Below, piece by piece: positions 9,148-52,048 of a stretch of DNA of 64,000 nucleotides (positions within the stretch are counted from its first letter, which is position 1; each line of letters starts with the position of its first letter). A model generated the notes under the pieces. The model made no database searches. It was not told the origin of the DNA and saw only the letters and a list, made by a program, of their open reading frames with translations. Both the position numbers and the translations under genes were made by a program. This DNA is from Rubrobacter aplysinae (lineage in GTDB: Bacteria; Actinomycetota; Rubrobacteria; Rubrobacterales; Rubrobacteraceae): positions 310,001 to 374,000 of the forward strand of contig NZ_LEKH01000001.1 of assembly GCF_001029505.1 (NCBI RefSeq), read 5' to 3'.

Positions 9148-9380
9148 GCTAGATCCTCCTTTGACCGTTCTCTTCACAACCGCCCGCCAAACGCCCCGGC
9201 GGTCGTGTACTGACCTGCCTCAACTCTAGCACGGTGGCGTGAGGCCCCGCCTAACTCCGATCGACCTTGCCGAATCTCGGAATGTTATTATATTTAAGCT
9301 TATCAAAACTGACAACAACCTCCGGACGATCTGGACGGTCTCACGGGTGGGGGAGCCCGGGACACACGAGGAGAGGTGGT

Positions 9381-41703: not shown

Positions 41704-42747
41704 CTAGTAGCCTTCCTCTTCCAGGCTCACCTTGCCCCGGAACATCCAGTAGATGATTATGAAGTAGGTCGCGGCGAGCACCATGCCGATGGACCACCAC
41801 ACCAGCCCGACCGTCTGGCTGTACTGCGATGAGGCGGCGCCCTGCACCGTCAGGCTGTTTGCCGGATCAACCGCCGGCAGGACGTTCGGGTAGACGCCAA
41901 AGACCGTGCTGGTCATCATCCCGACGATGTACGCGCCGGAGGCCAGGAAAGAGCCCCGGTCGTTGCCCCTGAAGCTGAAGTACAGCAGCGCCCCGAGCCC
42001 CGCCAGGGCGACCAGCGGCAGGACGAAGCCGTAGGGCCTGTCCAGGTAGGAGTCCAGCATCCGGGGGCTGACGTAGAACGTCGCGACCGTCGCCAGCGCC
42101 GCGAGTGCCACGAGGGCGAACCAGCCCCGGCGGATTATGGAGCGGCAACGCCCGTTCAGGGCGCCCTCGGTCTTGAGGGCGACCCAGGCCGCACCGTGGA
42201 TGGTAAGGGTCGCGAGGGCGAGGAGGCCGGTGAGGACGGTGTACCAGTCGAGGATGCCGGGTGGGGTGGCGAAGGGGCTCAGGTTCGTCCACAGTGGCTG
42301 GAAGAAGTTGCCCTCCGAGTTTAGCGGCACCCCGCGCACGACGTTGCCGAGCGCCGCGCCGTAGAAGACCGCGAGGAGGATGCTGCCGACGGCGAACATC
42401 ACGTCCCAGAACTGGGTCCACAGGGGGTTATCTATGTGGCGGCGCAGCTCCAGGGAGAGGCCCCGGATCATGAGTAGCCATAGGACGATGATCAGGGGCA
42501 GGTAGAACCCGGAGAACCCGGAGGCGTAGAGCACGGGGAAGGTGAAGAACAGCACGCCGCCGGTGGCTATCAGCCACACCTCGTTGCCGTCCCACACGGG
42601 GCCGACGGTCTTGAAGATCAGCTGACGCTCCTGGTCGTCGCGGCCGGCGAACAGGTGCAGCGCCCCGGCCCCGAGGTCGAAGCCGTCCAGCAACACGTAG
42701 ACGGTGAGCATCAGCGCAACCAGCACGAACCACAGCGTAGGCAGCAA
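41704..42747 (-). CDS. cydB: Cytochrome bd ubiquinol oxidase subunit II
   Basis: This is the non-haem-binding partner of CydA in the high-affinity terminal oxidase that reduces oxygen to water with quinol. The 347-aa membrane protein has eight to nine helices and the family motifs LLDGFDLGAGAL, PVWDGNEVWLI, GFSGFYLP and FWDVMFAVGS. TTG at 42747 is chosen because GGGAGG lies 6 nt upstream and MLPTLWF is the typical N-terminus; a GTG at 42765 precedes that site. One nucleotide separates it from the cydA stop. Confidence 0.94.
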   Translation of the reverse strand: MLPTLWFVLVALMLTVYVLLDGFDLGAGALHLFAGRDDQERQLIFKTVGPVWDGNEVWLIATGGVLFFTFPVLYASGFSGFYLPLIIVLWLLMIRGLSLELRRHIDNPLWTQFWDVMFAVGSILLAVFYGAALGNVVRGVPLNSEGNFFQPLWTNLSPFATPPGILDWYTVLTGLLALATLTIHGAAWVALKTEGALNGRCRSIIRRGWFALVALAALATVATFYVSPRMLDSYLDRPYGFVLPLVALAGLGALLYFSFRGNDRGSFLASGAYIVGMMTSTVFGVYPNVLPAVDPANSLTVQGAASSQYSQTVGLVWWSIGMVLAATYFIIIYWMFRGKVSLEEEGY

Positions 42748-42748
42748 C

Positions 42749-44131
42749 CTAGGCCTCCCTTCCACTCATCGCGGGCTCCGGCTCCGGCTCGGGGGAGCCT
42801 GGAGGATCTTCCTCGTCTTCATCGTCGGGGCCGTTTGCGACCTCGCGCACCATGAGCACTATGTAGAGCAGGCCCATGATCATGTATATCCCGGCGAACC
42901 CGATCAGGGTGAACAGCACCGTCCCGGAGGATAAGAGCGGCGAGACACCGTCCTCGGTGCGTAACAGGCCGTAGATCAACCACGGCTGCCGCCCGAGCTC
43001 GGTGGTGAACCACCCTGCGGTGTTGGCGATGTAGGGGAACGGTATGGCGAGCATCAACAGCCACAGCATCCAGCGCGACTCGAAGAGCCGCCGGCGCCAC
43101 AGCAGCAGGGCCGAGAGGGCCATTATCCCGATAAATATCGTCCCGAGACCGACCATGACGTGGTAGCTGTAGTACAGGAGCGGGATGTTGTCCGGCCAGT
43201 CTTTCTGCGGCAGCTCCTCCAGCCCCTGGACCTCGGCCGTCCACGACTGGTAGGTAAGGAAGGATAGGGCCTTGGGGATGACTATCGGGTTGTCCAGGCG
43301 CATGTTCTCGACGTCCGGCTGGCCGAGGATGGCGATGCCCGCCGGCTCCTCGGTCTCGAAGAGGCCTTCCATCGCGGCGAACTTCTCCGGCTGCTTCTCG
43401 GAGACCTGCCGGCTTTCGAGGTCGCCGCTGGGGAAGAGCATCCACACGCTGGCGATCACGCCTACTATGACGCCGACCTTGACGAAGATCTTGCCGTACT
43501 CGACGTGGCGCTGGGAGAGCAGGTAGAAGGCCCCGAGCCCGGCCATCGTGAACGCGCCGGTGACCACCGCGCCGCCCATCGTGTGCATGTACTGCGGAAA
43601 TACCCACGGGTTGGTGAGTACGGCCCAGTAGTTGTTTAGCTCTACGCCGTCGGCGACGCGCTCGAAGCCAACCGGGTTCTGCATCCAGGCGTTCGTGGTA
43701 ACGATGAAGTACCCCGAGGCCCAGGTTCCCAGAAACACCATCAGCGAGGAGAACCAGTGTACCTTCTGCCCGAAACGCCGCTCGCCGAAGAGGAACACGC
43801 CGACGAAGGCCGACTCCAGGAAGAAGGCGAACGCCCCCTCCATGGCCAGGGTCTGGGCGATAATGTCGCCCGCGTAGGCTGAGAACTCGGACCAGTTGGT
43901 GCCGAACTGGAACTCCATCGGGATACCGGTAACGACCCCCATGATGAAGGTGACGGCGAAGATCTTGCCCCAGAACCGCGCGGCCTTGTTGTAGCGCTCG
44001 TCGCCGCGCCGGATGGAGACAGTTTTTAGTATAAACACCAAGAGCGCCAGCCCCATGCTGAGCTGGGGGAAGATGTAATGGTAGGTAATGGTAAAGGCGA
44101 ACTGCAGGCGGGACAGGACTAAATCTTCCAC
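42749..44131 (-). CDS. cydA: Cytochrome bd ubiquinol oxidase subunit I
   Basis: This haem-bearing subunit oxidises quinol and reduces oxygen. The 460-aa protein keeps the haem-ligand histidines in ITYHYIFPQLS (His18) and in QYMHTMGGAV, and the quinol-site motif TELGRQPWLIYG. The periplasmic Q-loop is short, as in Gram-positive bacteria. An acidic proline-rich tail (DDEDEEDPPGSPEPEPEP) ends the protein. GTG at 44131 has GAGGAGG upstream and lies 4 nt after the cydC stop. Confidence 0.95.
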   Translation of the reverse strand: MEDLVLSRLQFAFTITYHYIFPQLSMGLALLVFILKTVSIRRGDERYNKAARFWGKIFAVTFIMGVVTGIPMEFQFGTNWSEFSAYAGDIIAQTLAMEGAFAFFLESAFVGVFLFGERRFGQKVHWFSSLMVFLGTWASGYFIVTTNAWMQNPVGFERVADGVELNNYWAVLTNPWVFPQYMHTMGGAVVTGAFTMAGLGAFYLLSQRHVEYGKIFVKVGVIVGVIASVWMLFPSGDLESRQVSEKQPEKFAAMEGLFETEEPAGIAILGQPDVENMRLDNPIVIPKALSFLTYQSWTAEVQGLEELPQKDWPDNIPLLYYSYHVMVGLGTIFIGIMALSALLLWRRRLFESRWMLWLLMLAIPFPYIANTAGWFTTELGRQPWLIYGLLRTEDGVSPLLSSGTVLFTLIGFAGIYMIMGLLYIVLMVREVANGPDDEDEEDPPGSPEPEPEPAMSGREA

Positions 44132-44135
44132 TCTT

Positions 44136-45974
44136 CTAGCCTCCTCTGTTTATCTGATCTGGGTGACTTACGTTACTTACGCGGCTGGCGTGCTCCGGGG
44201 CGGGCTCGGTGAGCATCTGGCGCTGTACCTCGACCATGCGGTGGTAGAGGCCGCCTTCCCGGAGTAGCTCGGCGTGCGTGCCCCGCTCGACGATACGCCC
44301 CGCGTCCATTACCAGGATCTCGTCCGTCCCCTCCAGCCCGACGAGGCGGTGGGTGATCTGGATGGTCGTCCTGCCGCGCGCGGCGGTGGCGAAAGCCTCC
44401 CGGAGATCCCGCTCCGTGGCGGCGTCAAGGTCGGCGGTGGCCTCGTCGAGCACCAGGACTGGCGGGTCCCTGAGGAGTGTCCGGGCCACCGAGAGCCGCT
44501 GGCGCTCGCCGCCGGAGAGCCGCTCGCCCTGCTCGCCGAGGAGCGTGTCCAGCCCCCCCGGCAGCCGCTCGACGACCCCTGAAAGCCGGGCCATCTCCAC
44601 GGCGTGCTCTAGCTCTGCCTCAGACGCCTCCGGCCTCGCCAGCAGCAGGTTGCCTCGCAGGGTATCGTTGAAGATGTAGCTCTCCTGGGAGACGAGGCCC
44701 ACGGCTTCCCGCAGATCCTCCTGCCGGTAACGGCGGACGTTGTGGCCGCCGAGCCGGACCACGCCCTCCTCCGGGTCCCAGAAGCGCAGGAGCAGGTGGG
44801 CCAGCGTGGTCTTGCCGGAGCCGCTCGGGCCGACCACGGCGACCCGGGCACCGGGCTCCGCCGTGAAGTCGACCCCGCGCAGGGCCAACGGCTCGTCCCC
44901 GGCGTACCGGAACCCGACGCCCCGGAACTCCACGCGAGGCTCCATGTGAGGCTCCGCGCCAACCGGTACGGGCTCCGGGGGATCGCTCACCCGGGGCTCC
45001 GCGGAGATCACCCCGGAGAGCCGGTCTCCGGCCGACAGGGACTTGCCGATGGCCCGGAACGCCGCGCCGAGGGGTCCTATGGCCTCGAAGGCCCCGACCG
45101 CCACCAGCACGAGCGCGGCCAGGTAGACGCCCCGGACCTCCCCGGAGGCGACCAGGGGGACCGTCATGACGAGCACGAGGAGCGCGGCGAGCCCCGGCAG
45201 CGCTTCCCCGAGCGCCCGCTGCAAGCCCGAGACCAGCGCGCCGCGCCGCTGCACGGCCCCGAGCCCGGCGTCCAGGTCCCCGACCAGCCGCCGCTGGTCT
45301 CCCTCTCTGCCGGAGGCCAGAAGGTCCCCGACGCCCTGCACCCCGTCTACCAGCCCGTTACGCAGCTCGGAGCGGAGTGTGATCTCCCGCCGCCCGAGCC
45401 CGCGCGTGAGGGCCATCGCGAGCAGCGGGACACCGATCCCGGCGGCGATGAGCACGGCGACCGCCGCCAGCGCCAGGGCCGGGCTGAAGAGGTAGAGGAA
45501 GCCACCGGTCAGGAGGGTGGTCAGGGCGGCGACGAGGAAGGGGTGTATGCCCCTGAGATACAGGTTCTGTAGCTCGTCCACGTCCGAGGTTATGCGGGAG
45601 AGGAGGTCCCCGCTACGGTGCTCCAGCAGCCGCGCGGGGGCCAGAGGTTCGAGACGCTCGTAGAAGCGGACCCTGACCCGCGCCAGCAGCCGGAAGGTGG
45701 CGTCGTGTGAGACCAGCCGCTCCCCGTAGCGGCTCGCCGCGCGGGCGAGGCCGGAGATGCGGACCACGTAGATCGGCAGCGTCAGCAGCAGCAGCGAGGT
45801 GCCGAGGGCGGCGGCCGAGATCACGTAGCTCGCCGTCGCCAGCAGGGTTACCCCGGCCGCCACGGTGGCCGCGCCGAGCAGCAGCGACAACACGAGCCGG
45901 CCGCCAAATCCTCGACCCGCGCCGGTGAGATCCAGCATCCAGCGCAGTCCTCCGGGTCGCCTCAGACGCCTCAT
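44136..45974 (-). CDS. cydC: Thiol/haem exporter ABC subunit CydC
   Basis: This half-transporter pairs with CydD to export cysteine and glutathione, which is needed for cytochrome bd assembly. The 612-aa protein has six transmembrane helices (residues 20-310) and an ATPase domain with VVGPSGSGKTTLAHLLLRF (Walker A), LSGGERQRLSVARTLL (signature) and VLVLDEATADLD (Walker B). ATG at 45974 overlaps the cydD stop as ATGA. The protein is complete, and cydA follows after 4 nt. Confidence 0.93.
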   Translation of the reverse strand: MRRLRRPGGLRWMLDLTGAGRGFGGRLVLSLLLGAATVAAGVTLLATASYVISAAALGTSLLLLTLPIYVVRISGLARAASRYGERLVSHDATFRLLARVRVRFYERLEPLAPARLLEHRSGDLLSRITSDVDELQNLYLRGIHPFLVAALTTLLTGGFLYLFSPALALAAVAVLIAAGIGVPLLAMALTRGLGRREITLRSELRNGLVDGVQGVGDLLASGREGDQRRLVGDLDAGLGAVQRRGALVSGLQRALGEALPGLAALLVLVMTVPLVASGEVRGVYLAALVLVAVGAFEAIGPLGAAFRAIGKSLSAGDRLSGVISAEPRVSDPPEPVPVGAEPHMEPRVEFRGVGFRYAGDEPLALRGVDFTAEPGARVAVVGPSGSGKTTLAHLLLRFWDPEEGVVRLGGHNVRRYRQEDLREAVGLVSQESYIFNDTLRGNLLLARPEASEAELEHAVEMARLSGVVERLPGGLDTLLGEQGERLSGGERQRLSVARTLLRDPPVLVLDEATADLDAATERDLREAFATAARGRTTIQITHRLVGLEGTDEILVMDAGRIVERGTHAELLREGGLYHRMVEVQRQMLTEPAPEHASRVSNVSHPDQINRGG

Positions 45975-47773
45975 ACCGCTACCCCACCGTAGCTGTCCAC
46001 GAGCCGGGCGTAGAGGCCGCCTTCCCGGAGCAGGCTGTCGTGGTCGCCGGACTCCACGACCCGGCCCTCGTCGAGGACGTAGACCCTGTCGGCGTGGCGG
46101 ATCGTGGACAGCCGGTGGGCGATGAGGAGCACGGTCCGGCCCCGCATCAGCCTGAAAAGCGAGTCCCGGATAAGACGCTCGGCCTCCGGGTCGAGCTCGG
46201 AGGTCGGCTCGTCCAGCACCAGTACCGGCGCGTCCTTTAGAAAGGCCCGGGCGACCGCCACCCTCTGGGCCTCGCCGCCGGAGAGCCTCGCCGCCCGCTC
46301 GCCGAGCTGGGTCTCGTACCCGTGGGGCAGCCGCTCGACGAGCTCCGTGAGCCCGGACATCCTCACGGCCTCCTCCACGTCTTCCATTGCGGCGTCCGGC
46401 CGGGCGAGGCGCAGGTTCTCCAGCAAACTGCCGTAGAACAGGTGCGGCCGCTGACCGACGTACGCCACGCTGCGCCGCCACGTCTCGGCGGGCATTCCGG
46501 TTACCGGTACGCCGTCGGCGTGTATCGTTCCTTCTTGCGGCTCGGCGAATCGCAGCAGGAGGCTCGCCAGGGTACTCTTGCCCGCGCCGCTCGGCCCTGC
46601 GACGGCGGTGACCAGGCCCGCCGGCAGCTCCAGACTCACGCCGTCGAGCGCCGGGACCTGGCCCTCCGGGTAGGTGTAACGGAGGCCGCCGACCGAGATG
46701 GTTGGCGGGGCGGTAGTAGGGCGCTGGGCGGACTCTACGGTATCCGCGGTTTCTGAGGGCCCCGGGGTTTGCAGGATCTGCAGTATGCGGACGGCGGAGG
46801 CCTCGCCTTCCATGCTGTCGTGGCGGCGGGAGCCGAGCTCGCGCAGCGGCTTGTAGAATTCCGGGGCCAGGATGAGCACGAGCAGAGCATCCTCGAAGGC
46901 CACGGAGCCCGAGATAAGCCGCACCCCCAGCACCACGGCGACCACGCCTATGGCCACGGCGGTCATGAACTCCAGAACGAGCCCGGAGAGGAATGCGTAG
47001 CGCAGGACCCGCATCGTGCGGCTGCGGAACTCCTCGCTGACCTCGGCGACGCGACCGCGCTCGGAGTGGCTGCGGTTCAGTACCTTGAGGGTGGTGAGTC
47101 CCTGAACTACATCGAGGAAGTACGCGCCGGTTCGCGAGAGGGCGTCCCACTGCTTGTACATGTGCTCCTCTGAGTAGCTGCCGACTATCGCCATCATTAC
47201 CGGGATCACCGGCGCGGTGACGAGTAGCAGCAGGGAGCTCGACCAGTCTATAGGGAAGACGTAGGCGGCGATCAGGAGCGGAGCCGCCGCGCTCAGGGGC
47301 ACCTGTGGCAGGTAACGTCCGGCGTAGCCTTCAAGCCGGTCGACGCCGTCGGTGGCGGTGGTCACCAGCTCCCCGCTGCGCTCGCCGGCGGTGTACGCCG
47401 GGCCCAGGCGGGTGATCTTCGCGAACAGCCGGCCCCGGATCTCGGTCTTTACCCGCAGGGCTCCCGTCCGGGCGGCGACCTCCTCGGCCCAGGCGAGCAC
47501 CGCGCGCACCGCGATGGCGCCGGCCAGCAACAAGAGCAGCGGGCCGACCTCCGAGAGGGCCTGCCCGTCGAGAAATACGCCCCCGACGATGCGGCTCAGG
47601 AAAACCATCTGGGCTATGATCGCCGCCGTTCCCAGGACGCCGAAGGCGACCGAGAGGCCGAGCAGGAGCCTCGCCCGGAGACCCGCCTGCCGGATGAGCC
47701 GCTTCGCCGCCCGCCCGCCGCTCTCTGGCTCCGCCGGAGAGCTCTTGTCCCCGGGATGTTCTTCAGGCTCGAT
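45971..47773 (-). CDS. cydD: Thiol/haem exporter ABC subunit CydD, no standard start codon
   Basis: This is the second half-transporter, with membrane helices and an ATPase domain (VAGPSGAGKSTLASLLLRF, LSGGEAQRVAVARAFL, VLVLDEPTSELD). The first standard start codon is ATG at 47608. Clear coding sequence with the first membrane helix (GLRARLLLGLSVAFGVLG) continues in frame upstream of it. That stretch has no ATG, GTG or TTG back to the stop at about 47833. An ATC at 47773 has GAGAGGGGG 7 nt upstream, which gives 600 aa. The start would overlap the upstream usp gene by 11 nt. See findings; the conservative reading is 47608. Confidence 0.85.
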   Translation of the reverse strand: MEPEEHPGDKSSPAEPESGGRAAKRLIRQAGLRARLLLGLSVAFGVLGTAAIIAQMVFLSRIVGGVFLDGQALSEVGPLLLLLAGAIAVRAVLAWAEEVAARTGALRVKTEIRGRLFAKITRLGPAYTAGERSGELVTTATDGVDRLEGYAGRYLPQVPLSAAAPLLIAAYVFPIDWSSSLLLLVTAPVIPVMMAIVGSYSEEHMYKQWDALSRTGAYFLDVVQGLTTLKVLNRSHSERGRVAEVSEEFRSRTMRVLRYAFLSGLVLEFMTAVAIGVVAVVLGVRLISGSVAFEDALLVLILAPEFYKPLRELGSRRHDSMEGEASAVRILQILQTPGPSETADTVESAQRPTTAPPTISVGGLRYTYPEGQVPALDGVSLELPAGLVTAVAGPSGAGKSTLASLLLRFAEPQEGTIHADGVPVTGMPAETWRRSVAYVGQRPHLFYGSLLENLRLARPDAAMEDVEEAVRMSGLTELVERLPHGYETQLGERAARLSGGEAQRVAVARAFLKDAPVLVLDEPTSELDPEAERLIRDSLFRLMRGRTVLLIAHRLSTIRHADRVYVLDEGRVVESGDHDSLLREGGLYARLVDSYGGVAV

Positions 47774-48809
47774 CCCGGTTCCCCCTCTCAGCGTCGTCGG
47801 TGTGGATCCCGCTCGATTCTTGCACGGGAGCAGGGTAAATCAAGACCGGACCGCGTGCGACCGAGAGCACCCGCGCCGAGACGCTGCCGAGCCTCAGCCT
47901 GTCCACCGGTCCCAGGCCGCGGCTGCCGACCGCGATCACGGTACCCATCTGCTCTTTCTCGTCGTCGTTGCCGGCGTCCATGATGGTCTCGGCCTCCGCG
48001 GCGTCCACGACTACCTCCGCGGCGTCTCCGACGGCTATCCTTACCTGGGGCCTCTTGCCGAGCAGCCCTTCGAGGCGCCGGGCCCCATCTTCCAGGAGGT
48101 GCTGCTGGCGGCGCAGCTCGTCGTCCACCATCCGGGCGTCGAGCAGGCGCTCGGCTTCGTCGGCGTGCGGCAGCTCCGGGTAGGCTCTGACGAGGATGAC
48201 TTTCGCCCCGGACAGGCCCCCGATGGCCGCCGCCAGCTCTCCGGCTCCCCGGGCGGGCTCGGAGCCATCGTCCGCCAGGACTATCCTGGACGGCGGCCAC
48301 GAGGCCAGACGACCCCGCACCACGAGCACGGGCCGGCGGCACCGGTGGGCCACGCCTTCGGCTACGCTGCCGACCAGCATGCGCTTTAAGCGTCCCATCC
48401 CCCGGCTCCCGAGCACCACCAGCCCGACGTCGAGCCTCTCGGCGAGCTCCACTATGCGCTCGTCCGGGTGGCCCGTCTCCAGGTGTGTCCGGGCCACCTC
48501 GGCGCCCTCTGACCGTATCAGAGCCTCCTGCTCGGCCAGGAGATCGCGGGCGTTCTCCTCCAGGGACTTCATGGCCTCCTCGGTCAGGGCGCCGGAGTCG
48601 GCGTACAGCCTGTAGACGTGGGAGCGGACGTGTACGAGGTGGAGCTCGGACCCGGCCTCCGAGCACAGCCGCGCGGCGGTCCGGGCCGCGTGCCCCGCCT
48701 CGGGAGAGCCGTCCGTGGCGAGCAGTACCCTGGAGGGGAGCACGTCGGCGGCCCCGGTAGTCTCCGAGGCCCGGGCGTGGTCCGCGGGGTTGGTCGGGTT
48801 AGTCGCCAT
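47763..48809 (-). CDS. Universal stress protein, tandem UspA domains (second copy)
   Basis: The 348-aa product has two Usp domains. Domain one has VLLATDGSPEAGHAA near residue 28 and the ATP-loop VVLGSRGMGRLKRMLVGSVA. Domain two has RIVLADDGSEPARGA and AVGSRGLGPVDRLRLGSVSARV, with a longer insert before it. Both carry the GxxG...GS pattern expected for ATP-binding Usp proteins. The ATG lies inside the last codons of the upstream usp gene, so translation is coupled. It leads directly into cydD. Confidence 0.9.
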   Translation of the reverse strand: MATNPTNPADHARASETTGAADVLPSRVLLATDGSPEAGHAARTAARLCSEAGSELHLVHVRSHVYRLYADSGALTEEAMKSLEENARDLLAEQEALIRSEGAEVARTHLETGHPDERIVELAERLDVGLVVLGSRGMGRLKRMLVGSVAEGVAHRCRRPVLVVRGRLASWPPSRIVLADDGSEPARGAGELAAAIGGLSGAKVILVRAYPELPHADEAERLLDARMVDDELRRQQHLLEDGARRLEGLLGKRPQVRIAVGDAAEVVVDAAEAETIMDAGNDDEKEQMGTVIAVGSRGLGPVDRLRLGSVSARVLSVARGPVLIYPAPVQESSGIHTDDAERGNRDRA

Positions 48810-49740
48810 CTTCGGCCCCGGCGTCTCTCACCACCAGTACCGGGCAGTGGGCGTGGCGCACGACGGAGTCCGAGACGCCGCCCATCAGGGAGCGCCGGAT
48901 GCCGCCGAGACCCCGGCTGCCGATCACCACCAGGTTGGCGTTCACCTCCTCGGCCAGCTCGACGATCTCCCCGGAGGGGTCTCCCCGCCGCAGATGGGAG
49001 TGTACCGGGAGGCCGGTCTTGGTCTTGATCTCTTCCACCCGGCCTTCCAGGAACTCGCGGGCTTCTTTCTCCGCCTGCTTGGCGAACGACTCGATGTTCT
49101 CCGCCATGTAGGGTTGGGTGTATGGCAGGTGGGCGGTGAAGCCGGCGTGTACGACGTGTATCTCCGAGCTCGTGCCGGCGGCCAGGGTCTGGGCGGTCTC
49201 CGTCGCCGCCCGGGCCTCTTCGGAGCCGTCTATGGCGAGCACTATCCTGGCCGGGAAGAGGGCGGCGGGCCCGTCTCCGCGTACCACGAGGACGGGGCAG
49301 TGGGCATGACGGGCAACGCCGTCGGCGACACTGCCCATTAGCGCCCGCCGGATACCGCCCTGGCCCCGGCTGCCCATGACGACCATCCCGGCGTCTATCT
49401 CCTCGGCCAAACGCACTATGCTATCCGCCCGGCCTCCCATCCTTAGATAAGACTGGGCCACGGTCCCGCCGGCCGCCTCGATCTTCCGCACCTGCTCGTC
49501 GAGCAGCCGCCGGGACTCCTCGTCCAGCTTCTTCTGCGCCTGCTCCTCGACCTGTGGGTCGAGCGCCACCGCACCCATGTCTCCGATGTGGAGCGCGCTG
49601 TCCCCGACGTAGATCACGTGCAGCTCGGAACCGAGCTTCCCGGCGAGCTCCACGGCCTTGTGCGTGGCGTAGCGCGCCTCCTCGGAGTCGTCTGTTGCCA
49701 GCAGTATCCTGGCGGCAATCTTGTCGGACGGATCTCTCAT
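48799..49740 (-). CDS. Universal stress protein, tandem UspA domains (first copy)
   Basis: The 313-aa product contains two complete Usp domains: RILLATDDSEEARYA with VVMGSRGQGGIRRALMGSVA, and RIVLAIDGSEEARAA with VVIGSRGLGGIRRSLMGGVS. Both fit the ATP-binding G-x2-G-x9-GS rule, and both end in RHAHCPVLVVR. The ATG follows AGGAGGCAG. In other actinobacteria tandem Usp proteins are induced by hypoxia and slow respiration, which matches the cyd genes downstream. It heads the tightly packed usp-usp-cydDCAB unit. Confidence 0.93.
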   Translation of the reverse strand: MRDPSDKIAARILLATDDSEEARYATHKAVELAGKLGSELHVIYVGDSALHIGDMGAVALDPQVEEQAQKKLDEESRRLLDEQVRKIEAAGGTVAQSYLRMGGRADSIVRLAEEIDAGMVVMGSRGQGGIRRALMGSVADGVARHAHCPVLVVRGDGPAALFPARIVLAIDGSEEARAATETAQTLAAGTSSEIHVVHAGFTAHLPYTQPYMAENIESFAKQAEKEAREFLEGRVEEIKTKTGLPVHSHLRRGDPSGEIVELAEEVNANLVVIGSRGLGGIRRSLMGGVSDSVVRHAHCPVLVVRDAGAEDGD

Positions 49741-49842: not shown

Positions 49843-50640
49843 TCATCTTTCCTCGCCTTCCCCGACTCCCCGGCTCACCGAGAGTACGTGCCACCGGCCG
49901 TACGCCCGACCCCACTCCAGCCATACGGGGCCTCCCGCGGCGGCCGCCGCCTCCCGGGTGAAGCGCGCGACGGCTGCCGCACTTCCGGGGTCTTCGGGAA
50001 GGTGGCCGGCCGCGCCTCCGGGCCCGTGGAAGATGACGCCGTCCAGGCGCACGCTCCTCGCGAAAGGCCCGGACACGCCGGACACGGACCGCGCATCCTC
50101 CGCATCCTCCGTGATGGACCACCCGCCATACTCGGTCGGGATCTCCCGCTGCACGAGCACCGGCCAGGTGATCCGCTCCCGGTCCGGGCGGTCCGACGCC
50201 CCCCGGGGGCACGGCTCCTCCAGTGCCCAGGCGCGGCGGATCTCGCGCAGCACCTCTGAAAGGCTGCCGAGCCCCCGGCGCCGGAAGTCCTCGGTACAGA
50301 CGGAGACGGTTACCGCCTCCATATCCAGAACAGCCTCTCGTATAAGGCGGGTGAGGGTCTCTACCGTTGGTCCCGGCTCTCCGGCCGTCGGGTGTGCCGT
50401 CCGGGTGCGGGCTCCATCGTGCCTGTCGGCAACACCGAGCCCTCCGGGGGGCGTGGGCCCGTGCAGCGTATGAGCGGGGCCGCAGGCTCCCAGAAATGCC
50501 CGGTGGCCCTCGCGGGTGAGTATGAAGCCCTCCGGCACCGGCAGGCCCGCCCGAGTAAGCAGATCCATGAGACCCACCCGCCCATCTTCAATGGTGAAGC
50601 CCGCTTCGCCGAGCCACCTGAGCAGCCCGGATCTCAACAC
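49843..50640 (-). CDS. Short protein with PEP synthase/PPDK N-terminal-like domain
   Basis: The 265-aa protein begins with a segment (VGLMDLLTRAGLPVPEGF then ILTREGHRAFL) that matches the start of phosphoenolpyruvate synthase and pyruvate phosphate dikinase nucleotide-binding domains. Later, WPVLVQREIPTEYGGWSI resembles the VxVQxMV strand of the same domain. The phosphohistidine and PEP-binding domains are absent, and the middle is proline-rich, so it is not a complete enzyme. GTG at 50640 has GGGGGGCG upstream. It lies 102 bp ahead of the usp genes on the same strand, downstream of a LuxR regulator. A sensor or regulatory role is conceivable. Confidence 0.6.
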   Translation of the reverse strand: MLRSGLLRWLGEAGFTIEDGRVGLMDLLTRAGLPVPEGFILTREGHRAFLGACGPAHTLHGPTPPGGLGVADRHDGARTRTAHPTAGEPGPTVETLTRLIREAVLDMEAVTVSVCTEDFRRRGLGSLSEVLREIRRAWALEEPCPRGASDRPDRERITWPVLVQREIPTEYGGWSITEDAEDARSVSGVSGPFARSVRLDGVIFHGPGGAAGHLPEDPGSAAAVARFTREAAAAAGGPVWLEWGRAYGRWHVLSVSRGVGEGEER

Positions 50641-50980
50641 TCTCGCCCCCCTGCGTGGCCGGCCGGGGTGTGACCGCGATGACTCGTGATCCTCCAGATT
50701 CTCACGCCTGTCAGGCCGTTTCCGAGGAAGCCGTGAGCCCCGCCTTGGGCCTCTGGAGCGGGACGAGCTCCACCAGAGGCGGCCCTGCGGCGTGCGAGAT
50801 TCTGGGTCCCGCCGCCCGCTCCGCCTGCGGGGACACCGGGGCCTACCATGAGCCGGGTGTAAGAGCCGCCCATCATGTCCACCAATGTACCCGCAGAGAG
50901 AGAGCCCATCCTGAGCAGGATGTTTTATTTAACTGGGTAGAATTGACCTGCTATCCGGCCCCGACCTCGGGGAATGGTGC
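50641..50980. other. 340-bp gene-free region upstream of the PPDK-like/usp/cyd genes
   Basis: This separates the LuxR gene from the stress block. It holds a perfect palindrome at 50907-50922 followed by an AT-rich stretch (TTTTATTTAA) that is the lowest-GC part of the area. It probably contains the promoter of the minus-strand block. The open frames across it lack coding character. Confidence 0.45.
50907..50922. promoter_or_regulatory. Palindrome CATCCTG-AG-CAGGATG
   Basis: A 7-bp perfect inverted repeat with a 2-nt centre is followed on the plus strand by TTTTATTT. On the plus strand it looks like a terminator but has no gene before it. On the minus strand it lies in the likely promoter of the stress block and may be an operator. 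Confidence 0.4.
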
Positions 50981-51691
50981 CTAGCTCTGGAGCAGCCCCC
51001 GCTCGCGGGCCTTTGCCAGCGCCTCTAGCTGTGAGTGAGCCCCGAGGGCCTGTAGGAGAGAGTGGATGTGATTTCGGACAGTGGCCTCCGACAGGTAGAG
51101 GTTCCCGCCTATCTCCTTCGCGCTCCTGCCCCGGGCGAGTAGCCCCAGCACCTCTAGCTGACGCGCGGTCAGCGAGGGCGTCTCGGGTGTCTCATCCCCG
51201 AGGCCGTCCCCACCGCCGACGTCGTCGGCGCTATCTGCGTCATCTCCCTTGCGGGAGAGCCGTATGAGCTGCTGGGCCATCTCCAGCGTCTCGTGTTTCT
51301 CTTGCGCGTCACGTAGCAGATGGACGAGATAGGGGCCTTCCGCGGAGTCCAGGCTCAGGATGCTAACGTTCACCCAACGCTTCTCGCCCGAGAGCGCGGC
51401 CACGCGCATGTCGTAGCTCGACACGGGCCTGCCAACCCGCGCCAGACGCATCACCGGGCAGTCGTCGGTGCAGACGGGGCTGCCGCACTCTCTCTCGCCC
51501 AGCAAAGCCTCGTAGCAGCGCCGGCCCACCATATCCTCGGCCGCCAGTCCCGTGAGAAACGCGGCCTCCTCGTCCCAGTAGACGATCCGGTACTCGGGGT
51601 CCACCACGAAAACGGCGTCACCCGTGCGGGCCTCGACGAGGCCGCGTACCGCCAGAGGCAGCGGGGCGAGGCTGGAGCCTATCTCTGTCAC
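50981..51691 (-). CDS. PAS domain-LuxR family regulator with clustered cysteines
   Basis: The 236-aa protein has a PAS domain at residues 20-125 (AVFVVDPEYRIVYWDEEA) and a C-terminal LuxR helix-turn-helix (SLTARQLEVLGLLARGRSAK then SEATVRNHIHSLL). The PAS loop contains Cys59, Cys69, Cys74 and Cys78 within 20 residues, an arrangement suited to binding a metal or sensing redox state. GTG at 51691 is chosen because AGGAGG lies 6 nt upstream; a GTG at 51715 comes before it. It is the regulator nearest the usp-cyd block and is transcribed toward it. Confidence 0.85.
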   Translation of the reverse strand: MTEIGSSLAPLPLAVRGLVEARTGDAVFVVDPEYRIVYWDEEAAFLTGLAAEDMVGRRCYEALLGERECGSPVCTDDCPVMRLARVGRPVSSYDMRVAALSGEKRWVNVSILSLDSAEGPYLVHLLRDAQEKHETLEMAQQLIRLSRKGDDADSADDVGGGDGLGDETPETPSLTARQLEVLGLLARGRSAKEIGGNLYLSEATVRNHIHSLLQALGAHSQLEALAKARERGLLQS

Positions 51692-52048
51692 TTCGCGCCT
51701 CCTCACGAGTCTCACGGTTACCGAGTTTCCAGGCGGAGGAGTTATCGTCTAATCGACCTCACTGGCCTCCCCTTCTGTAACAATACAGAAACCTTATCAT
51801 CGAAAGCCCCTCGGGTCCGTAACCCGATATACCGGCCGACCGGCCGCCTCGCAAACACCGAGTGCCCTCCCCTGATACGGCCCTGCACGGTCGAGCAGGC
51901 ATGCGGTGTGTATATGGCTACAGGGTTCTACATGGCTCGTGAGCCGCGGATCAGAATGAAATAGGCTGCCGGTGAGATTGCGGATACGCTCCACGGCCTG
52001 TACGTGACCCAGGATCATCCACTCCAGGGAGGACGGAGGCGCGCGCCG
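51692..52048. other. 357-bp region between the LuxR gene and tRNA-Leu
   Basis: It contains the LuxR promoter and a perfect dyad at 51773-51790. The rest (51800-52045) shows no convincing gene or structure. Confidence 0.5.
51773..51790. promoter_or_regulatory. Dyad TTCTGTA-N4-TACAGAA upstream of the PAS-LuxR gene
   Basis: Perfect 7-bp arms lie about 80 bp ahead of the start codon. CTGT...ACAG recalls a LexA box, but the spacing is 6 and not 8. Autoregulation or control by another dimeric factor is likely. Confidence 0.4.

Follow-up and report, generated by a model that had tools for sequence, protein, structure and literature searches.

The PAS-LuxR regulator described here, encoded in a 64,000-nucleotide stretch of Rubrobacter aplysinae DNA (the window), carries four clustered cysteines that belong to a recurring three- or four-cysteine PAS signature with conserved genomic contexts, and the signature extends beyond this isolated cluster. 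The best reading of our results is that the regulator is a one-component oxygen or redox switch, similar to VqmA or DosR, with a three- or four-cysteine PAS sensor. The cysteine cluster is probably metal-binding or oxygen-reactive, and the best explanation, to which we assign a probability of about 0.45, is a metal-centred redox switch that would act at a 16-bp palindrome before stress and low-oxygen genes. The regulator could control genes for stress proteins and for low-oxygen respiration.

The regulator carries four clustered cysteines in its PAS domain

The regulator gene lies on the minus strand at 50981..51715 and encodes 244 amino acids from GTG 51715 or 236 from GTG 51691, the latter being the start preferred by a codon-usage gene caller whose training genes were chosen by hand by the analyst. 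Pfam matches were PAS_4 at residues 31-141 and GerE at residues 181-233, with PAS and PAS_9 also above cut-offs, and the Pfam scan gave no match to a receiver or kinase domain. The protein has the composition of a PAS-LuxR one-component regulator, i.e., an N-terminal PAS domain and a C-terminal GerE helix-turn-helix (HTH) with neither receiver nor kinase. A DosR-type response regulator was rejected as an assignment on the missing receiver domain (Pfam).

The translation contains four cysteines among 244 residues, C67, C77, C82 and C86 (numbered from GTG 51715), with the spacing C-x9-C-x4-C-x3-C. Of trials with four cysteines placed randomly in 244 residues, 0.145% confined all four to a 20-residue span. 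Their minus-strand codons are at 51515..51517 for C67, the first conserved cysteine, which aligns to the column of the LOV adduct cysteine; at 51485..51487 for C77, which is unconserved in the regulator's own family and occurs in a separate four-cysteine clade; and at 51470..51472 and 51458..51460 for C82 and C86, the second and third conserved cysteines. The conserved trio is thus C67-x14-C82-x3-C86. An earlier note on this DNA had reported a four-cysteine cluster of this spacing within 20 residues, and the translation agrees with it exactly, all four codons lying inside 51450-51520; its numbering (C59, C69, C74 and C78) denotes the same residues counted from the in-frame GTG 51691. Its placement of the cluster just after the PAS core was mistaken: the cysteines fall within the PAS_4 match at 31-141, in the loop before helix 87-93 of a structure model with a PAS fold (mean pLDDT 76, built from four sequences).

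Three of the four cysteines are conserved in the family

A search of 39 genomes of the family gave 13 full-length proteins, the window protein included, in 11 genomes, and these were aligned with the nearest outside relative (L040) to give 14 rows. C67, C82 and C86 were all kept in 10 of the 14 rows; of the others, L016 is without C82, L047 is without C67, L018 has C67 alone and L017 has none of the three. C77 was found in the window protein alone (1/14), and its column in the 13 other rows is occupied by Gly (6), Asp (4), and Asn, Ser or Ala (1 each). Conservation in close homologues, which had been suggested earlier as a check on all four residues, was therefore confirmed for the trio and failed for C77. 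The proposal of four equivalent ligands was rejected, since none of the 13 other family or near-family rows has C77; the separate four-cysteine clade described below rescues it in part. In L018, the PAS-LuxR protein of genome G023, the linker contains a tandem repeat with an NRDTY unit, and C82 and C86 are gone.

The cysteine trio recurs in distant PAS domains

A profile of the family's PAS region, searched against 396 genomes of the phylum at E 1e-8, gave matches in 86, and the trio was present in 18 of 19 outside loops read with this unmasked profile. Because the profile itself contained the cysteines, the search of the same 396 genomes was repeated with the cysteines masked as X, which gave matches in 76 genomes. 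The rows read were the 77 matches besides the 13 family proteins, and 75 were scored, L094 (the L040 protein again) and L163 (no anchor) being left out. Among these 75 distant PAS domains, 43 had the first cysteine together with the pair, 27 had neither, four had the first cysteine alone and one had the pair alone (Fisher P 4e-15, inflated by relatedness). On account of this inflation, rows were clustered by identity: at 50% identity, 34 rows remained, with 15 having both elements, 16 neither and three partial (P 2e-6), and at 40% identity there were 26 rows, with 12 both, 12 neither and two partial. Such near all-or-none co-occurrence supports a putative joint thiol or metal site.

The pattern C-x8-18-C-x2-4-C was found in 44 of the 77 masked-search rows (L094 included). 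Loop spacing varied, the first gap being 13-15 in 39 of these 44 rows and the second gap 2-4; in this count, shortest-match reading gave the four-cysteine rows L076 and L077 a gap of 9 and a gap of 4. The window protein fits the resulting three-cysteine PAS signature, which consists of GxxC followed ~9-15 residues on by C-x2-4-C. Comparison of the loop rows gave no conserved fourth ligand in the three-cysteine form. A conserved HVD, possibly an extra ligand, was seen in the three-cysteine PAS loop of L120, L127, L165 and similar rows. Domain scans of eight trio proteins gave three with histidine kinase, two with GGDEF, one with SpoIIE and one with GerE domains, and one fragment with GAF and PAS; the module is therefore not restricted to LuxR proteins. 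A plasmid search yielded only three weak PAS matches, and the gene context of the distant PAS-LuxR loci was uninformative by longest-ORF reading, two of these loci being re-read with a codon-based caller.

A separate four-cysteine clade lies next to aconitase-family genes

Two PAS-LuxR relatives, L076 and L077, have exactly the spacing of the window protein. When 119 genomes of that order were searched with L077, 18 had a match at E 1e-25, and C-x9-C-x4-C-x3-C was present in 14 of the 18 clade rows covering the loop (query included). Of the variants, L244 and L246 have C-x9-C-x4-C-x2-C, and in L236, which has C-x2-C, the extra cysteine is replaced by His; L245, the most distant row, has three cysteines only. 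Of the 17 four-ligand loci that could be assessed, 16 have an aconitase-family large and small subunit pair directly upstream in the same orientation, the sole exception being L246; the pair is also missing at L245. Pfam and NCBIfam assigned the pair to Aconitase, Aconitase_C and 3-isopropylmalate dehydratase/homoaconitase-like families. At L168, a hemerythrin gene follows on the other strand. Aconitase-family enzymes have a labile [4Fe-4S] cluster, and exchange of Cys for His is typical of metal sites. The aconitase neighbour and the four-cysteine clade would favour a metal, perhaps Fe-S, over a plain disulfide, as an association rather than a proof.

A predicted 16-bp operator marks promoters in family genomes

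Comparison of the upstream regions of family loci gave a 16-bp palindrome, TGRKCA-N4-TGMYCA, which is a predicted operator (e.g. TGATCAGAATTGATCA). The palindrome search covered nine other family genomes having a PAS-LuxR orthologue (family genome G004 lay outside it) and gave 46 copies versus five for a reversed-pattern control, a count that is not fully independent, since about eight of the 46 sites lie in the discovery loci. In four relatives that lack both the orthologue and any LuxR protein of similar HTH, there were two copies versus three for the control. In G027, all eight copies fall in a 32-kb region around a GAF-GAF-LuxR gene, the HTH of which is 75% identical to that of the regulator. 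A second set of 23 genomes gave 7 versus 0 in G023 and 4 versus 0 in G026, as expected, and 1 versus 1 in each of G006 and G036, where a GAF-LuxR-type protein is present. G009 had 14 exact copies versus none for the control, and neither a PAS-LuxR nor a matching GAF-LuxR HTH was found in this genome, which is 77% complete; this may reflect either the incomplete genome or another regulator. The other 18 genomes of the second set gave nine versus 14. Altogether, the palindrome marks promoters in family genomes that have the regulator's DNA-binding domain, with exceptions (G009, G006 and G036).

The neighbours of the palindrome were examined for 46 of 57 sites. For 42 of the 46, a gene directed away from the site starts no more than 300 bp from it; this holds for 14% of random positions in the same loci. 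None of the 46 sites lies wholly inside a called gene, and five overlap a gene 3' end by at most 13 bases. Domain scans covered 40 of the neighbouring genes, of which six matched Usp (four more, in L049, L050, L051 and L055, were recognised by homology), three Hsp20, one CydA (plus CydA in L049) and two zinc alcohol dehydrogenases. DoxX, FAD_binding_4, flavin reductase, MFS, Rce1-like and SHOCT were found twice each, phosphofructokinase, acetate kinase, P-type ATPase, flavodoxin, lycopene cyclase and Zip transporter were among those found once, and six of the 40 had no Pfam match. A single iron-sulfur protein gene lies 393 bp from a palindrome site. The palindrome sites in L193-L212 and L049-L056 constitute a candidate stress/hypoxia regulon.

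The GAF-GAF-LuxR proteins L002 (own genome, C9), L193:13932-15266 and L022, the three in which the GAF domains were checked, have HTH domains 57-75% identical to that of the PAS-LuxR regulator. As the two kinds of protein share this HTH, two sensors may feed one regulon, and the palindrome could belong to a GAF-LuxR paralogue with a similar HTH.

Control of cytochrome bd in the window is plausible by analogy

The regulator is followed on the same (minus) strand by a Pfam-less gene, two universal stress genes, two ABC transporter genes, cydA and cydB. The first of these (49843..50640), without a Pfam match at E 0.001, has a weak coding signal, is called only from 50322 and is possibly decaying; similar genes adjoin the regulator in several relatives. 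The universal stress proteins are encoded at 48799..49740, with two Usp stretches, and at 47763..48809. The ABC transporter genes (44136-45938 and 45971-47608, together 44136..47608) are cydDC-like by their position beside cydAB, and cydA (42749-44131) and cydB (41704-42765), together 41704..44131, encode the cytochrome bd oxidase subunits. Of 13 distinct relative loci, two of them spanning just 3.2 kb, seven have universal stress genes no more than 2.5 kb from the regulator and one (L049) has cyd genes within that distance; cyd is also present in the window.

The gap that separates the regulator from the same-strand genes after it contains a weak copy of the predicted operator, TGGGTAGAATTGACCT (50934..50949, no strand assigned), ~290 bp ahead of the next gene start used. 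This is the second-best position in the window, with a score of 8.4 versus 19.3-29.9 for the 45 sites of the scoring matrix, which was built from 45 of the 57 sites, without the site from the window genome and 11 others judged doubtful. The top palindrome-like site of the window, at 9300-9315 (score 13.8), lies far from the regulator. Copies with at most two mismatches were at chance level in the window (15 vs 14.7). A single exact copy is present in the window genome, more than 1 kb from any called gene start, and copies with at most one mismatch in this genome were at control level (29 vs 31).

The earlier suggestion that the regulator controls cytochrome bd gains from synteny and from two relatives in which cydA is preceded by the predicted operator, and loses from the weakness of the window's own operator. 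Given this weak site and the control-level counts in the genome, control of cyd in the window is argued by analogy; control of cytochrome bd by the regulator appears plausible on that footing.

A putative metal-centred redox switch is the best explanation

In the mechanism that we favour, the trio C67, C82 and C86, which precedes helix 87-93, would provide the core ligands, with C77 as an optional fourth in the window protein. The trio would most likely hold a redox-active metal centre: three cysteines that occur jointly, with an optional fourth replaceable by His, are more readily explained by a metal site than by one disulfide, and the oxygen- and redox-related neighbours make an Fe-S cluster the best guess. 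Oxygen, nitric oxide or iron/redox stress might damage this centre or change its state, and the altered centre would change the arrangement of PAS domain, helix and HTH in the predicted fold and thereby, in a presumed direction, DNA binding by GerE. The GerE domain would bind TGRKCA-N4-TGMYCA before genes for Usp, Hsp20, cytochrome bd and the regulator itself. Counted against this model are the four of 14 family rows that are missing one to three cysteines, the varying loop spacing, the failure to find a conserved fourth ligand in the three-cysteine form, the scarcity of the palindrome in the window genome and the exceptional genomes G009, G006 and G036. The earlier proposal that the cluster could be an Fe-S centre, a zinc site or disulfides survives as a joint thiol or metal site, through the co-occurrence, the four-cysteine clade and the aconitase neighbour, and is given up as regards four equal ligands.

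The strongest competitor, though somewhat unlikely, is a metal-free thiol switch, in which two cysteines would form a disulfide under oxidation and alter DNA binding, as in VqmA. VqmA provided the top whole-length Foldseek matches to our model and, according to PMC7387800, senses oxygen through a redox disulfide, and this alternative therefore still stands; single-cysteine losses in paralogues would also be easier to accept. However, the joint trio, the Cys-to-His exchange and the four-cysteine clade suit metal ligation better. Zinc sites usually have C-x2-C or C-x3-C pairs with Cys/His exchange, and because such pairs are present in these loops and the exchange was observed in the four-cysteine clade, the metal might instead be a structural zinc that stiffens the PAS loop, with a small molecule in the PAS pocket as the signal. 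We consider this unlikely, since the predicted-operator genes and the aconitase neighbour indicate oxygen, iron or redox, and total loss of the cysteines in some paralogues is unexpected for a folding site.

It is improbable that the cysteines are a relic of an ancestral sensor, unused in the window protein. A long LuxR protein whose HTH is 61-63% identical to that of the regulator is present in all four genomes with a cysteine-depleted PAS-LuxR protein (G011, G023, G024 and G028). Among the seven other genomes, only that of the window has such a protein (Fisher P 0.015, post hoc and from a small sample). Against a relic, the window protein retains the trio and has gained C77. A heme or flavin PAS sensor, e.g. 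a LOV-like one with C67 as the adduct cysteine, is very improbable even though C67 aligns to the adduct cysteine of 9vf8 (sequence alignment, E 0.17) and the fold matches are rich in LOV proteins and include EL222, DosP and MmoS. As regards flavin, the regulator has GRRCYEAL in place of GRNCRFLQ, and the flavin-contacting residues are therefore missing.

Implications of the cysteine signature

Few sensor modules are commoner in bacteria than the PAS domain, and for most PAS domains no cofactor is known. A simple cysteine signature may flag a metal or redox subclass of these domains, with a cofactor and signal that are directly testable, and it is accompanied here by two genomic contexts (aconitase; stress and cytochrome bd genes) and by a predicted operator. 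This suggests a route by which actinobacteria without DosRST might control a dormancy-like programme. On a wider reading, which is tentative and which we would sooner doubt than accept, the domains would form a widespread, undescribed Fe-S PAS class with three core cysteines and an optional fourth, found in histidine kinase, GGDEF, SpoIIE-type and PAS-LuxR proteins; it would be aconitase-operonic in one actinobacterial clade and, through a TGATCA-N4-TGATCA-like operator, would serve in the window's family as a one-component counterpart of the DosR regulon. A literature search that largely left subscription papers outside its coverage, and is thus weak evidence of absence, returned no paper on a three-cysteine PAS motif or on the regulator. 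One paper matching "three conserved cysteine" and PAS, PMC6456745, places its cysteines in the autokinase domain.

Comparison with known systems

Foldseek matches of the model were VqmA, LOV proteins, EL222 and DosP, and also PpsR and MmoS; in the alignments inspected, no solved structure with the three-cysteine motif was recognised by sequence. VqmA, the Vibrio PAS-LuxR quorum receptor (6ide, 6kju and 6ugl), was at ranks 1, 2, 8 and 10 (E 5e-9 to 2e-8), and superposition gave TM 0.33-0.39, so that the two domains together superpose poorly. The regulator and VqmA both have PAS and LuxR HTH folds in a single chain. Oxygen leads to a C48-C63 disulfide in VqmA that weakens binding to DNA, and the protein is more active under anaerobic conditions (PMC7387800). 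The intramolecular C48-C63 disulfide, an intermolecular C134 disulfide and the small-molecule ligand DPO are VqmA's own.

EL222, a LOV-HTH protein (3p7n and 8a5r), is alike in its PAS fold and LuxR-type HTH, but its flavin-binding LOV motif is missing in the regulator. Assignment as a LOV photoreceptor of the EL222 type, with the motif GxNCRFLQ, was rejected, the cysteine being the sole flavin-site residue shared. With DosP, a heme PAS protein, the likeness observed is one of fold only.

Two histidine kinases offer likenesses in the cysteines themselves. In ArcB, PAS cysteines read the respiratory redox state, and in NreB, a staphylococcal PAS histidine kinase, a [4Fe-4S] cluster is held by four PAS cysteines (both from PMC4601167). 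ArcB shares with the regulator redox-reading PAS cysteines, as proposed here, and has two inter-subunit disulfides and a membrane kinase of its own. NreB differs in being the histidine kinase of a two-component pair; its likeness, four cysteines in one PAS domain, is found in the regulator's own family in the window protein alone (1/14). The cysteine spacing of NreB is C-x2-C-x11-C-x2-C, which is absent from the regulator (C-x9-C-x4-C-x3-C).

DosR of Mycobacterium, a response regulator, takes its input from the heme kinases DosS and DosT (PMC4601167). In contrast, the sensor of the window regulator is fused to its HTH. The predicted palindrome differs from the DosR box. The DosR regulon contains genes for universal stress proteins, Hsp20, phosphofructokinase, P-type ATPase and a ferredoxin-like protein. 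The family's predicted targets are alike in these respects, and part of the mix of genes flanking the palindrome resembles this dormancy regulon as generally described.
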